A DNA stretch of 64,000 nucleotides, taken from contig NZ_CP023317.1 of NCBI RefSeq assembly GCF_009497655.1, forward strand, positions 4,121,501 through 4,185,500. The letters are read 5' to 3'. Position numbers and translations under genes: made by a program. The first letter of the stretch is position 1. Each line of letters begins with the position of its first letter. Shown piece by piece: positions 15,375-62,905 of this stretch. Origin of the DNA: Priestia megaterium (lineage in GTDB: Bacteria > Bacillota > Bacilli > Bacillales > Bacillaceae_H). A model generated the notes under the pieces. It was not told the DNA's origin. It did no database searches and saw nothing but the letters and a program-made list of their open reading frames with translations.

Positions 15375-17147
15375 TTACTTTGGCAGTTTGATAAAGAAAG
15401 TTGTTCCTTCATTTAATTCACTTTCAACCGCAATAATCCCTTGGTGTGCCTCCACGATATTTTTAGCGATCGCAAGCCCAAGACCAGTTCCTGACTTTCC
15501 TCTCGTTCTGGCTTTATCAGCTTTATAAAATCGCTCGAATACAAACGGAAGATCTTCTTTTGGAATCCCTGCTCCCGTATCTTGAACAGAAAGATGGATT
15601 TCGGATTGACTTTTATCAAGATGCAGCTTTACTTCTCCGTAGTCATCCGTATGACGAATGGCATTATCAATTAAGTTTGTCAGCACTTGTTCCATACGGT
15701 CTGAATCAATCATCGCTTCAAATTCATCTTCTATTTTTCCATTAAGAGACAGTTTAATATGTTTTTCTTTAGCTAACCCTTGAAACTTGCGCAAAACACG
15801 TTCTGTAAATTCAACCATTGCTACAGATTCTAAGTGAAGCTGCACATGTCCCGCTTCCATTCGCGCTAAATCTAAAAGTTCATTTACAAGCCGGCCCATA
15901 CGGAGTGATTCATCATAAATCACCTGTGCAATTTCTTTCTTTTCTTCATCCGTACTTGCAATATCGTCAATAATAGCTTCACTATAACCTTGAAGCATAG
16001 AAATAGGTGTACGCAATTCATGAGACACGTTTGCAATAAAATCTTTTCTCGATTTATCAAGTTTACGCTCTTCAGACATGTCTCGCAGTACAGCTACAGC
16101 ACCGCGGATTTTCGTTTGATTATAGAGCGGTGACATTAAAATGACCCACGTTTTCCCTTGAATTTTCAACTCTGCACTTCGCTCCGTTTCAGTCTCTACT
16201 ACCGTTTGAAACAAATGCACGACGTTTGCTGGAAGCTCAGGCACCTGCTGGTTGTTCACATCCTGCTCGTAATACCAAGTCTGAAGAAAATGCTCCGCTG
16301 GGGGATTGGTAATTAAAATCGATCCGTCTCTACTAAACGTAATAACACCGTCTGCCATACTGCTTAAAATACTTGAAAGCTGTTCTTTTTCCTGATTGAG
16401 CGCATTGAGATTAAACTTTAACTGCCTGCCCATTTGATTAAAAGCAATCGCTAACTCTCCAATTTCATCGTGAGTTAAAATAGGTACTTTTGTATCAAAG
16501 TTCCCTTTTGTTACTTCAAATGCCGCCTGCCTCATTTTTCTAAGAGGTGCTGTAATTCGAGTAGATAAGAAAAAAGCAAAGATAGTAGTTAAAATAATAG
16601 CAATACCTGCAGCCAATAAAATGAACTTAGTCGTATATTGAGCGGGCTCTTCAATTTCAGAAAGAGATTGATACAGATAAACGCCGCCTGTCGGTTTATT
16701 ATCTTTCATTAAAGGTACACCGACAACAAACATTAAAGGCTCATCACTCGTGTCTTTCTTTGTGGTCATGTACATTTTTTCCCGTATTACTTTACCTTTT
16801 TCAACCACTTGATTTAGCTGATCGTTTTGTTTAACAATGGCCGAAATAGCTTTCTTATTTTCTTTATCAGGATGTGTGGAATGCCAATAGAAATCTTTAT
16901 CTTGAACAATAACTACACTTGCTTGATCTGCAAGTTCACGAGCAATGGATAGTCCTAGCTTTTCATCCTCTGTTTCCTGCACAATGGTAGAGATTTTAGC
17001 AGCCGTTTTAGTTAAACGGTTTTCTGCGTCTACAACATGATAATTTTCAAAAAACTGAAGCAGTAAAATGGTCAAAATAAATAAAACAAGCGTAACGAGC
17101 AATAGGATAGTAAACCATAGTTTACCAACTACACTTCTCCAAAACAT
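15375..17147 (-). CDS. resE: Redox/oxygen sensor histidine kinase ResE
   Basis: 590 aa, the usual ResE length. Two membrane helices (residues about 8-30 and 170-192) flank an extracytoplasmic domain. HAMP (about 193-245), PAS (about 255-350), HisKA with [12 protein letters not shown] carrying the phosphoacceptor His, and HATPase_c with N, G1 (DTGAGI) and G2 (GTGLGLAI) boxes follow. Its ATG overlaps the resD stop (ATGA), so translation is coupled. With ResD it controls anaerobic and nitric-oxide-responsive genes in Bacillus. Confidence 0.95.
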
Positions 17148-17863
17148 CAGTTATTTTCAACCTCAAATTTATACCCTACTCCCCAAACGGTTACGATCAT
17201 TTTCGCCGCTTGTGACGATACGCGATTTAACTTTTCACGCAAACGCTTGACGTGCGTATCTACCGTACGAAGATCTCCAAAGAAATCATAATGCCACACT
17301 TCACGCAGCAGCTGCTCTCTGTCGTATACTTTATCTGGCGTTTTTGCAAGGTAGCACAATAATTCATATTCTTTTGGAGTTAAGTTAACTTCTTTTCCGT
17401 CTGCTGTAACGCGATGTGCATCATTATCAATCGTTAAGTGATCAAAGACAATAAGGTTTTTCACGCTCGTTTCTGGCTGAATAAACGTTGCTTGAGAAGA
17501 ACGTCGAAGCAGTGCTTTTACGCGAAGAACCACTTCTCTTGGGCTAAACGGCTTAACGATGTAATCATCTGTACCTACTTCAAACCCTTGGACTCTGTTT
17601 ACTTCTTCACCTTTAGCTGTAAGCATGATAATAGGAGTTGCTTTTTTCTCGCGAATTTGTTTACAGACCTCAATACCGTCTATGCCAGGCATCATTAAAT
17701 CTAATACAATCAAATCATAATCTATGTGTAACGCTTTTTCGATTGCTTCATGCCCGTCGGCTGCTTCTTCAATGATGTATCCTTCTTTTTCTAAGTACAT
17801 TTTTAACAATCGTCTAATGCGATCTTCATCGTCTACTAGCAGTAATCTTTGTTCGTTTTGCAT
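17147..17863 (-). CDS. resD: Response regulator ResD
   Basis: 238-aa OmpR-family regulator. The receiver domain has the acidic pair DD near residue 11, phospho-acceptor D55 ([10 protein letters not shown]) and the conserved Lys in IVKPFSPRE. The C-terminal winged helix ends [20 protein letters not shown] precedes the ATG. In B. subtilis resDE is partly expressed by read-through from resABC; here a repeat with terminator-like structure separates the two halves, so a dedicated resD promoter is expected, though I found no convincing one in 17864-17980. Confidence 0.95.
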
Positions 17864-17980
17864 GTATTTTCAACCTCCTAGTCTTAGTGTACAAAAAAAA
17901 ACCGGCGAGTTCTACTTATGATACCCAAACAATGTGACAATTCGTGAACACCTTTAGGAAAAACAGCTTTTTTTACCAAA

Positions 17981-18331
17981 AAGAGGCTGAGACGCAACGA
18001 AATCCATTCAATCTAAAGACGAACAAATAAAATACAGGAGCTAGTAGGGATCGCTTATTCCATCGCTGTTGATTTCCGTGCAAGACTTTGCTTTCCGCGG
18101 GCGGCCGGTGAGCCTCCTCGTCGCTTCCGCTCCTGCGGGGTCTCACCTTTTCCGCTTTTCCCGCAGGAGTCTTCGCCTTGCCCTCCAATCAACAGCTAGA
18201 AGCACCTAGATATATGAAGCCTCCGTTCACCATGCAAATAAAAAAATCCGAACGAATGTGATTCTCCATCAAGAATCTCAACTCATCGTTCGGATCTTCT
18301 TCAACTAAAATATCTTTATTTCAGCCTCTAT
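17981..18331. repeat. Dispersed intergenic repeat, copy A (full length)
   Basis: About 350 bp. The ends carry inverted AGAGGCTGA (17982-17990) and TCAGCCTCT (18321-18329). Inside is a GC-rich core bounded by GCTGTTGATT (18065-18074) and AATCAACAGC (18187-18196). Next comes a hairpin, ATCCGAACGA (18246-18255) with TCGTTCGGAT (18286-18295). Core blocks at 18091-18124 and 18150-18193 are identical to copy B. Read on the minus strand the hairpin follows the resC stop and is trailed by T residues, so it can serve as a terminator. A spurious small frame inside (17973-18188) is not a gene. Confidence 0.9.
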
Positions 18332-18345
18332 TCTATTTTTAAAGG

Positions 18346-19524
18346 TTACGCATATGAATGTAAACCTGCAATAACTAGGTTCACGGCCACTAAGTTGAAC
18401 ATGATGATGGCAAATCCGCCAACTGCCAGCCAAGCTGATTTTTCACCGTGCCATCCTTTAGACAGCCGAAGATGAAGAAAAGCGGCATAAAATAAAAAGG
18501 TGATCAGCGCCCACACCTCTTTGGGGTCCCATCCCCAAAAGCGCGTCCAGGCCATCTGAGCCCAAATCATAGCGAAAATAAGTGCTCCTAATGTAAAAAT
18601 AGGAAATCCAATCGCCACTGCTCTGTAGCTTACTTCATCAAGCAAGTCGCTGTTTACCTGCTTCACAAGCGGCTGCAGTGCGGCTCCAATTCGCTTCCGT
18701 AAAATAAGACGAATCAGCCAATATAAGACAAACCCACCGGCTAACGACCAAATAACTGTATTTAATTTTTTAGCATTGATAATAGCCGGCATATCAACAA
18801 GCGGCTTTATGTCGTTCCCGTCTGTCCACTCACTTTGATGAGGCCCCACTAGCGGAACCATATGATATACGACTTGCTCTTGTTCGCCACTTTTATTAAC
18901 CCAATTAAATGATGACTCGTAGTGAGCCGCATTAAAAGCCAGCGTCACCGCTACAAATCCAAGCGTACTAATAAGCGTATACAGGATGAATTCCAGCCAA
19001 AATGCTTTTTTATTTCGCTTGGATTGATCAATTGTTTTGATTAAATAAATCAATCCTGCAACAAAGCTAATGGAAAGCACGGCTTCACCCGTAGCTGCGG
19101 TTGTAACGTGAATATGCAGCCAATTCGTCTGGAGAGCTGGTATCAGCGGCGTAATTTCAGTTGGAAACATGCTTGCATAAGCAATGATTAAAAGAGCCAC
19201 CGGCAAGGCAAAAAGTCCAAGCATGCTAAGACGATAAATAAAGTAAATAACAATAAATGCGCCAACAAGCATCATGCCAAAAAACGTCGTAAATTCAAAT
19301 AAATTACTAACAGGAGCGTGGCCTGATGCAATCCATCTTGTAATGAAATAGCCAATCTGTGCAATAAAACCGATGATGGTAACCGCAATTCCAAACGTTG
19401 CCCACTTTGTTTTCTTTTGAGCTGCTCGCTTATCTCGAATAGCTCCTCCGAAAAAAAAGGTTGCAACTAAATAAGCAATAAACGCCACATACAGTAAATT
19501 ACTACTTATACTCGCGTAATCCAT
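18346..19524 (-). CDS. resC: Cytochrome c biogenesis protein ResC (CcsA)
   Basis: 392-aa polytopic membrane protein with the heme-handling tryptophan-rich WWD signature [14 protein letters not shown] near residue 325 and conserved histidines in membrane segments. With ResB it exports heme and attaches it to apocytochrome c outside the membrane (system II). It follows resB by 11 bp. The repeat element begins immediately downstream of its stop. Confidence 0.94.
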
Positions 19525-44060: not shown

Positions 44061-44144
44061 CGTCTTCCTCCTATTAATCGCTTAATAGAGTGTATGATAG
44101 AGTACAAAAACTATGCCAAGAATCTTTTAAATCTATCACATAAA

Positions 44145-44482
44145 AAAGAGATTAAGACATAATGAAATTAATCTAATCTAAATAAGAACAAATGAGATAG
44201 TATGGATAGCTTGTGACACCGCTGTTGATTTTCATGCAAGGCTTCGCTTTCCGCGGGCGGCCGGTGAGCCTCCTCGTCGCGTACGCTCCTGCGGGGTCTC
44301 ACCTATTCCGCTTTTCCCGCAGGAGTCTTCGCCTTGCCCTCCAATCAACCGCTAGAACCAACTACATAAATGAAAGCTACGTTCACCATCAACTTAAAAA
44401 AAATCCGAACGAATTTGATTCTAAATCAAGAATCTCTATTTATCGTTCGGATTTTTCTTCAACTAAAATATGGTTGTCACAC
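44145..44482. repeat. Dispersed intergenic repeat, copy B (full length)
   Basis: About 340 bp between nudF and spoIIM. It shares with copy A the identical blocks 44247-44280, 44285-44304 and 44306-44349. The core is bounded by GCTGTTGATT (44221-44230) and AATCAACCGC (44343-44352; one mismatch). The hairpin ATCCGAACGA/TCGTTCGGAT begins at 44403, with A and T runs on both sides. The outer inverted ends are degenerate. The remaining bases of the 534-bp gap (44483-44594) show nothing recognisable. Confidence 0.9.
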
Positions 44483-62514: not shown

Positions 62515-62760
62515 CCGTGTCACACCCTTTTTATATTTAATAGATTTATTGTGAAAACGTTCTACTATAATATTTACTACAATTTACTAGATAACTAAAC
62601 CTTTTCTCTTTCGATGTAAACGAAATGTAACAACTGTAATACAGTCAATGGATAATATCTAGTTATTTTGTTTCACATCCAAAACGAAAAAAACACAAAA
62701 ACGGATCACTTTTGTCAGCCAATATAGTAAAAAACTTATAGGTCTTAGTAAACAAAGAAA

Positions 62761-62905
62761 GGGATTGAGACATAACTAAATTACTTCCATCAACATCTAG
62801 GAGCTCCTGCATACGTGAAACCTACGTTCACCCTACCAATAAAAAAATCCGAACGATTCATCGTTCGGATCTTCCTTCAGCTAAAATAATTTTGTCTCAG
62901 CCTTC
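62761..62905. repeat. Dispersed intergenic repeat, copy C (core deleted)
   Basis: 145 bp. The outer shell is kept: inverted TGAGACA (62766-62772) and TGTCTCA (62893-62899), the GTTCACC segment and the hairpin ATCCGAACGA (62847-62856)/TCGTTCGGAT (62861-62870) with a T7 tail on the minus strand. The GC-rich core of copies A and B is missing, with a join resembling recombination between short ATC-containing sequences at the core edges. Together with 62515-62760, which shows nothing recognisable apart from a lone GTTTCACAT, it fills the 395-bp gap. Confidence 0.85.

Follow-up and report, generated by a model that had tools for sequence, protein, structure and literature searches.

Insertion sequences (IS) of the IS1182 family include elements that take hairpins as targets. 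IS1272, a 1.9-kb IS with 16-bp inverted repeats and 14 to 15 copies per strain studied, replaces inverted-repeat targets without target duplication, as laid out in a stem-loop-removal model (PMC5678879). TnSha1 and IS1272 delete hairpins, five of which were confirmed as terminators by RNA-seq mapping; one terminator was hit repeatedly by TnSha1/IS1272, in both orientations, and the insertion data are read there as being without orientation bias (PMC4923244). Small intergenic repeats described as MITE-like, bcr1–bcr3, occur in the Bacillus cereus group (PMC3446304), and Bacillus halodurans harbors the Bhal-1 stem-loop family, of 74 bp and 36 copies (PMC2267715).

The window, the whole stretch of 64,000 nucleotides of Priestia megaterium DNA that was analysed, contains at copy A one copy of an abundant element of about 340 bp. 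Like IS1272 and TnSha1 of staphylococci, the element has stem-loop or terminator targets, the hairpin being wholly or partly deleted and no target duplication being left; like TnSha1, it is seen in both orientations at one target, here at 2 of 29 syntenic sites. The likeness to IS1272 is one of published target behaviour. In contrast to IS1272, the element is small, gene-less and of high copy number, and it includes both a terminator-like hairpin and a GC-rich core that covaries; in contrast to both IS1272 and TnSha1 its orientation is almost locked to that of the gene. The repeats bcr1–bcr3 can be likened to it by description alone (small, intergenic, MITE-like), as can Bhal-1, an intergenic stem-loop repeat of a related bacterium that could be a core fragment. 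We found no published description of the element in open PMC papers, and one may be in print elsewhere; among open PMC papers that print core 11- to 14-mers, none concerns a Bacillaceae repeat, as judged by title and start of abstract. Most likely, the element is a non-autonomous MITE derived from an IS1182-family IS; it would move by replacing stem-loops and bring a substitute terminator with it.

Results

Architecture of the element

An earlier note, made from the letters of the window, had described copy A as a composite repeat, and all of its named parts are in place, among them the outer inverted ends AGAGGCTGA/TCAGCCTCT and a core bounded by inverted repeats (Table 1). What it missed is that the sense strand of the element is the minus strand and that the element lies just past a stop codon. 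Read in sense, the order of parts is outer arm, hairpin with U-run, spacer, 132-nt core, 3′ part, and outer arm with T-run; the hairpin that had been called downstream exists, but it stands at the 5′ side of the element. The outer arms read AAAAGAGGCTGGGACA at the 5′ end and TGTCTCAACCTCTTTT at the 3′ end, the spacer ends in CTTCTAGC before the core, and GGTGTCACAAGC follows directly 3′ of it. The inner part of the copy A 5′ arm is as in the inverted end of an IS at locus L159, described below (G and L numbers denote genomes and loci).

The hairpin has a z score of −5.2 against dinucleotide shuffles, none of which folded equally well, and by eye it is retained among own-genome copies though its sequence varies (alignment A1, comprising 38 of the 43 copies selected for core matches of 120 nt or more). 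A scan for short-loop terminators detected none at this hairpin. The core has a z score of −5.8 against dinucleotide shuffles. The element is short, with only small frames and without a transposase gene; the two small frames tested have no Pfam or NCBIfam family match, in agreement with the proposed lack of a credible coding frame. The earlier note likened copy A to GC-rich Bacillaceae repeats that are not known to have an assigned function. Mis-annotation of such repeats as small ORFs, mentioned there, was seen in the one plasmid record looked at, a Priestia megaterium plasmid in which the repeat (NZ_CP069400.1, L257, 1523-1705) is annotated as hypothetical protein WP_080754389.1.

In sense, the element profile match begins 14 bp past the ccsB/resC gene, and the next ORF encodes a response regulator that we take to be ResD from its position in the res operon. 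Elsewhere the window holds an FMN riboswitch (RF00050, 12466-12609, minus strand, 131 bits).

Table 1. Coordinates of the element copies, the parts of copy A and the neighboring genes in the window.
Feature	Position	Strand	Evidence
Copy A, whole element	17978..18332	-	Matches to the profiles of the three segments
5′ outer arm, sense ATAGAGGCTGAAATAAA, family consensus AAAAAGAGGCTGGGACAAAA	18315..18331	-	Sequence and own-genome alignment
Terminator-like hairpin, then T7 in sense	18240..18297	-	Fold, −24.4 kcal/mol
GC-rich core, 132 nt, bounded by GCTGTTGATT/AATCAACAGC	18065..18196	-	Alignment, fold and covariation
Conserved 3′ part of shell	17979..18063	-	Profile match; resembles right end of likely parent IS
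3′ outer arm, sense GTTGCGTCTCAGCCTCTTTTT	17978..17998	-	Sequence and own-genome alignment
CcsB (ResC), cytochrome c biogenesis, upstream gene in sense	18346..19524	-	TIGR03144, 254 bits (cut-off 187.6)
Response regulator, next gene in sense	17147..17863	-	PF00072 and PF00486
Copy B, full element, core 44221-44352	44144..44481	-	Profile and covariance-model matches
Copy C, without core, 3′ part shortened	62758..62904	-	Profile matches

Copy number and placement at gene ends

The full copy near 44145 and the core-less copy near 62761 that had been pointed out are both real, and the repeat extends far beyond these three copies. A full count by profile search in a contiguous 360 kb of the same chromosome gave 29 elements, one copy per about 12 kb, 12 of which retain a full core together with the two shell parts; the count for G008 is 26 elements in 400 kb. 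Extrapolation of the density suggests about 400 elements per chromosome. The own genome has at least 40 core matches (the best 40 of 110 candidates were scored), the other 39 scored being 92–98% identical to the window core, and the shell varies more than the core among copies. A two-part core pattern has 22 exact matches in this genome versus 0 for a reversed control, and a covariance model of the core finds at least 93 (best 150 of 1359 candidates scored), numbers well above chance expectation. Three successive core matches on one strand are also found at L177 (1314-1827, spacing about 187 bp) and at L163 (1056-1649, spacing about 220 bp).

The placement relative to genes was read from 81 distinct own-genome elements, a sample that leans to well-kept copies because it was drawn from the best-scoring loci; 2 lie at a locus edge and 79 were classified, with ORFs called by a simple longest-frame rule without a gene finder. 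A co-oriented ORF lies upstream in 75 of the 79, and in 65 of these 75 the element starts −5 to +25 bp from the stop codon. The contiguous samples together with the window, with some overlap among samples, give 55 of 58 elements co-oriented with the upstream ORF. We infer that this fixed orientation reflects selection for a working terminator in the gene direction.

Hairpins at element-free sites

Comparison with related genomes supplied the empty-site polymorphism that had been proposed as a check. All 29 own elements of the 360-kb stretch have a syntenic place in G008, where 7 are element-free, 2 carry the element in the opposite orientation and 20 in the same orientation, often shortened; at the two opposite-orientation sites the sequence of the element differs between the two species (by eye). 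Conversely, of the 26 G008 elements, 2 lack a syntenic counterpart position within the stretch compared; at 2 others the own genome is without an element, at 2 it has one in the opposite orientation and at 20 in the same orientation. At all nine syntenic element-free places a hairpin lies between the same flanks, with folding energies of −13.7 to −27.7 and at most 2 of 200 simple shuffles folding equally well. A T-run of at least four follows at 8 of the 9, and the ninth (920185) has T3. No target duplication was seen by eye at the compared sites.

Two sites were compared in more genomes. Site 786072 is matched in 8 of the 10 genomes; the comparison covered the own genome, G001, G003, G006 and G008, the three further matches being weaker. 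Because the four sisters share one and the same simple terminator and the element is present in the own genome only, it is a gain in the own lineage. At the window site, G001 and G006 have a shell without a core, the core within the G008 shell has suffered an internal deletion, and G002, G003, G004, G005, G007 and G009 have no element and, by eye, a simple terminator-like hairpin. Loss of the core is sometimes precise and sometimes lies within a larger or internal deletion, and because its extent varies we claim no clean excision unit.

A likely parent in the IS1182 family

An IS with related parts is found at L159 of G009 (Bacillus sp. CGMCC 1.16541), where 21-bp inverted ends TAAAATAAGGCTGGGACATAA/TTATGTCCCACTCTCATTTTA, 1638 bp overall, enclose a left hairpin, an inverse core, an IS1182 transposase gene broken into two frames and a second core in sense orientation, opposite to the first (core-model E 8e-9). 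A search with NF033551 reports the transposase gene with internal stops, and the left end starts 4 bp past an ORF. The element resembles this IS in its inner end sequence, the hairpin near the left end, the core, the right end and the start close after an ORF; unlike the element, the IS is 1.64 kb long, has a broken transposase gene and holds two cores inverted to each other. Among 19 loci searched, the 3′-shell profile matches the right ends at L159 (E 6e-5), L172 (2e-7) and L097 (1.2e-4), while the left-end profile match is weak (E 0.012–0.019, with 0.012 at L159); core and right-end profile matches occur together at L159/L258. The ends of element and IS agree in the inner GGCTGGGACA part and not over all 21 bp, and by eye the element ends have the inner 10–15 bp in common with the ends of L159 and L298. 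These sequence comparisons make the L159 IS the likely parent of the element. A second locus of G009, L172, shows a similar pair of ends, separated by 632 bp, that enclose a core and a core-like copy in inverted orientation; it is a plausible intermediate.

Of 66 loci found with one L159 transposase frame, 4 have a core match at E ≤ 0.01, namely L258 (the L159 locus itself), L264, L298 and L314. Beside IS1182-type transposase genes, the core is present in two Peribacillus plasmids, Peribacillus acanthi, Mesobacillus subterraneus and a second locus of the L159 genome. In the two plasmid elements it lies between the left hairpin and the transposase gene; the Peribacillus IS with a core has other ends, AGACTGTAGACAAA, and an IS at L228 (G004) whose transposase is 88% identical to the Peribacillus one has no core. 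In Mesobacillus subterraneus, the IS1182-type element (L314, about 1755-2100) opens with a hairpin immediately past what looks by eye like a stop codon, and the core comes next. IS1182 copies at L233 (2195-4007) and L228 (1227-2848) lie between two copies of a whole hairpin, which is hairpin duplication instead of replacement; at L233 the flanking hairpin is that of the target, which counts against the stem-loop-replacement account. At L234 the hairpins on the two sides differ. As sources of the element, the transposase loci L227–L232 were set aside, their ends not matching the window arms, as were the L159-transposase relatives L259–L263, in which a core is absent (E up to 0.05) and the scan used gave no convincing pair of ends.

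The own genome has no matches to an IS1182 transposase with PF05598 and NF033551, nor do G001, G003 and G006, and G008 has a weak match only (4.7e-4, in a 1942-aa frame), even though the copy at 786072 was gained in the own lineage. The partner transposase, not found in the own genome, G001, G003 and G006, could therefore have arrived by plasmid or have disappeared since; its absence is the chief weakness of the account.

The earlier suggestion of a MITE-like element is thus supported, with a likely IS1182-family parent and terminator hairpins as targets. The hairpins at element-free places, the position and orientation of the copies and their similarity to an IS are all apparent from the genome sequences. 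We infer the identity of the enzyme and its action in trans. The outer arms would be the terminal inverted repeats of the parent IS, and the hairpin, core and 3′ part its end regions, the transposase gene having been lost. An IS1182-family transposase supplied in trans would recognise the terminator stem-loop at a gene end, remove it and join the element between the leftover A-run and T-run; a target duplication would be absent because the stem-loop is replaced, as in the published mode of IS1272. The new copy would supply a terminator-like hairpin and U-run in the gene direction that presumably terminates transcription in vivo, and the insertion would therefore be tolerated, termination being kept.

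Covariation and spread of the core

The core fold covaries strongly. Within Priestia (38 sequences), 8 of 41 core pairs show changes on both sides. Across genera, in a model-fitted alignment of 64 rows (three of them partial and one antisense), both-side changes are seen at 29 of 40 pairs versus 17.7 in shuffles and at most 17 in slid controls, and both-side-change cells number 265 versus 61 in shuffles and at most 60 in slid controls; when 60 of these rows are aligned without fitting, the figure is 32 of 45 core pairs. The covariance check proposed for the core was therefore positive. The further pairing that had been proposed inside the core, CTCCTGCGGG/CCCGCAGGAG, is present as sequence, but these segments hardly vary and the covarying consensus fold pairs them otherwise. 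Folding of alignment A1 gave zero pairs outside the core; other settings show outer-arm pairing. The covariation might also have arisen by template switching in palindromes. Between the orthologous element hairpins at own 739141 (L117) and G008 743774 (L136), the differences are compensatory and one loop resembles the reverse complement of the other (both by eye), which suggests that template switching occurs inside hairpins.

The core reaches well beyond Priestia, the core model matching 13 of 16 genomes of the family and 151 of 199 sampled genomes of the order, in 77 of 97 genera. At least three kinds of ends surround it in 28 order-level loci (by eye), among them a third end type, GGCTGTGTTAAAG...TTTAACAGAGCC, seen by eye in other families of the order (L199, L200 and L208). 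The core may act as RNA or as DNA, or may simply be carried along. A rather unlikely reading of this spread is that the core is a functional structured module in its own right, belonging to hairpin-targeting IS1182-type lineages with GAGGCTGGGACA, AGACTGTAGACAAA and GGCTGTGTTAAAG ends; acting in stem-loop-replacing transposition as folded DNA or RNA, it might for example help the transposase to find or mimic terminator hairpins, and it would have spread through the order on that account.

Still less probable, we think, is that the core, or possibly the entire element, is retained for its action as a structured RNA in 3′ UTRs, for instance in mRNA stabilisation or in completing termination, with mobility secondary. 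The structured-RNA idea of the earlier note stands as regards compensatory change, which is strong, and the RNA function itself is putative. Both alignments agree with such a role in their covariation, GNRA-like tips are frequent in the sense core (by eye), and G-U pairs outnumber A-C in sense within Priestia (28:12, a hand count with one constant U-G pair excluded) and in the fitted diverse alignment (57:33). The unfitted diverse alignment, however, gives 53:60, so that the counts do not agree on a strand; in the outer arms, where one column is largely G-U and another largely C-A, the ratio is 70:49. Consensus energies of the core are also close in sense and antisense (−96.9 vs −89.0, and −92.3 vs −89.0 in the unfitted diverse alignment), several copies have lost the core, and Rfam release 15 gave chance-level matches only on the element at gathering and relaxed thresholds. 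Palindrome template switching can mimic covariation, and a flipped loop between orthologues is seen by eye at 739141. Because the U-run hairpin precedes the core in sense, little transcription from the gene would be expected to reach the core.

Discussion

The element is best described as a MITE of the known IS1182-type stem-loop-replacing kind, unusual in its copy number, its own terminator-like hairpin and its shared core. A transposase might be dispensed with if terminators were exchanged by microhomology-driven template switching between their A-runs and T-runs during replication. Most element junctions do lie in A- and T-runs (by eye), element 955904 ends at the T-run of its own internal hairpin, and 70 of 79 elements are in leading-strand sense with the terminus assumed at 2.51 Mb. 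Gene orientation explains part of this strand bias, however, because own ORFs between 700 and 1060 kb number 224 versus 98 in the leading-strand direction. The copies moreover belong to one family by sequence, their ends are IS-like, and the same modules recur in an IS1182 relative; we regard exchange by template switching as quite improbable. A REP/RAYT-like repeat mobilised by an HUH (Y1) transposase would also be palindromic, at gene 3′ ends and biased to the leading strand, but PF01797 is present only in G009 and absent from the other 9 of 10 Priestia genomes, including all five carriers of this element type seen (G000, G001, G003, G006 and G008), which leaves this explanation scarcely credible. 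Group IIC introns target terminators as well; they were dropped since the hairpin is replaced here and not kept.

With stem-loop replacement by an IS1182-type miniature as the preferred account, the findings suggest that such a miniature has supplanted the terminators at what may be several hundred genes of a single genome, the total being extrapolated. The element brings its own hairpins, which suggests that a transposon can exchange the 3′ ends of genes. Its family offers a high-copy natural record for the study of stem-loop-replacing transposition, and it draws attention to a GC-rich module that is widespread, covaries strongly and is unmatched in Rfam release 15.
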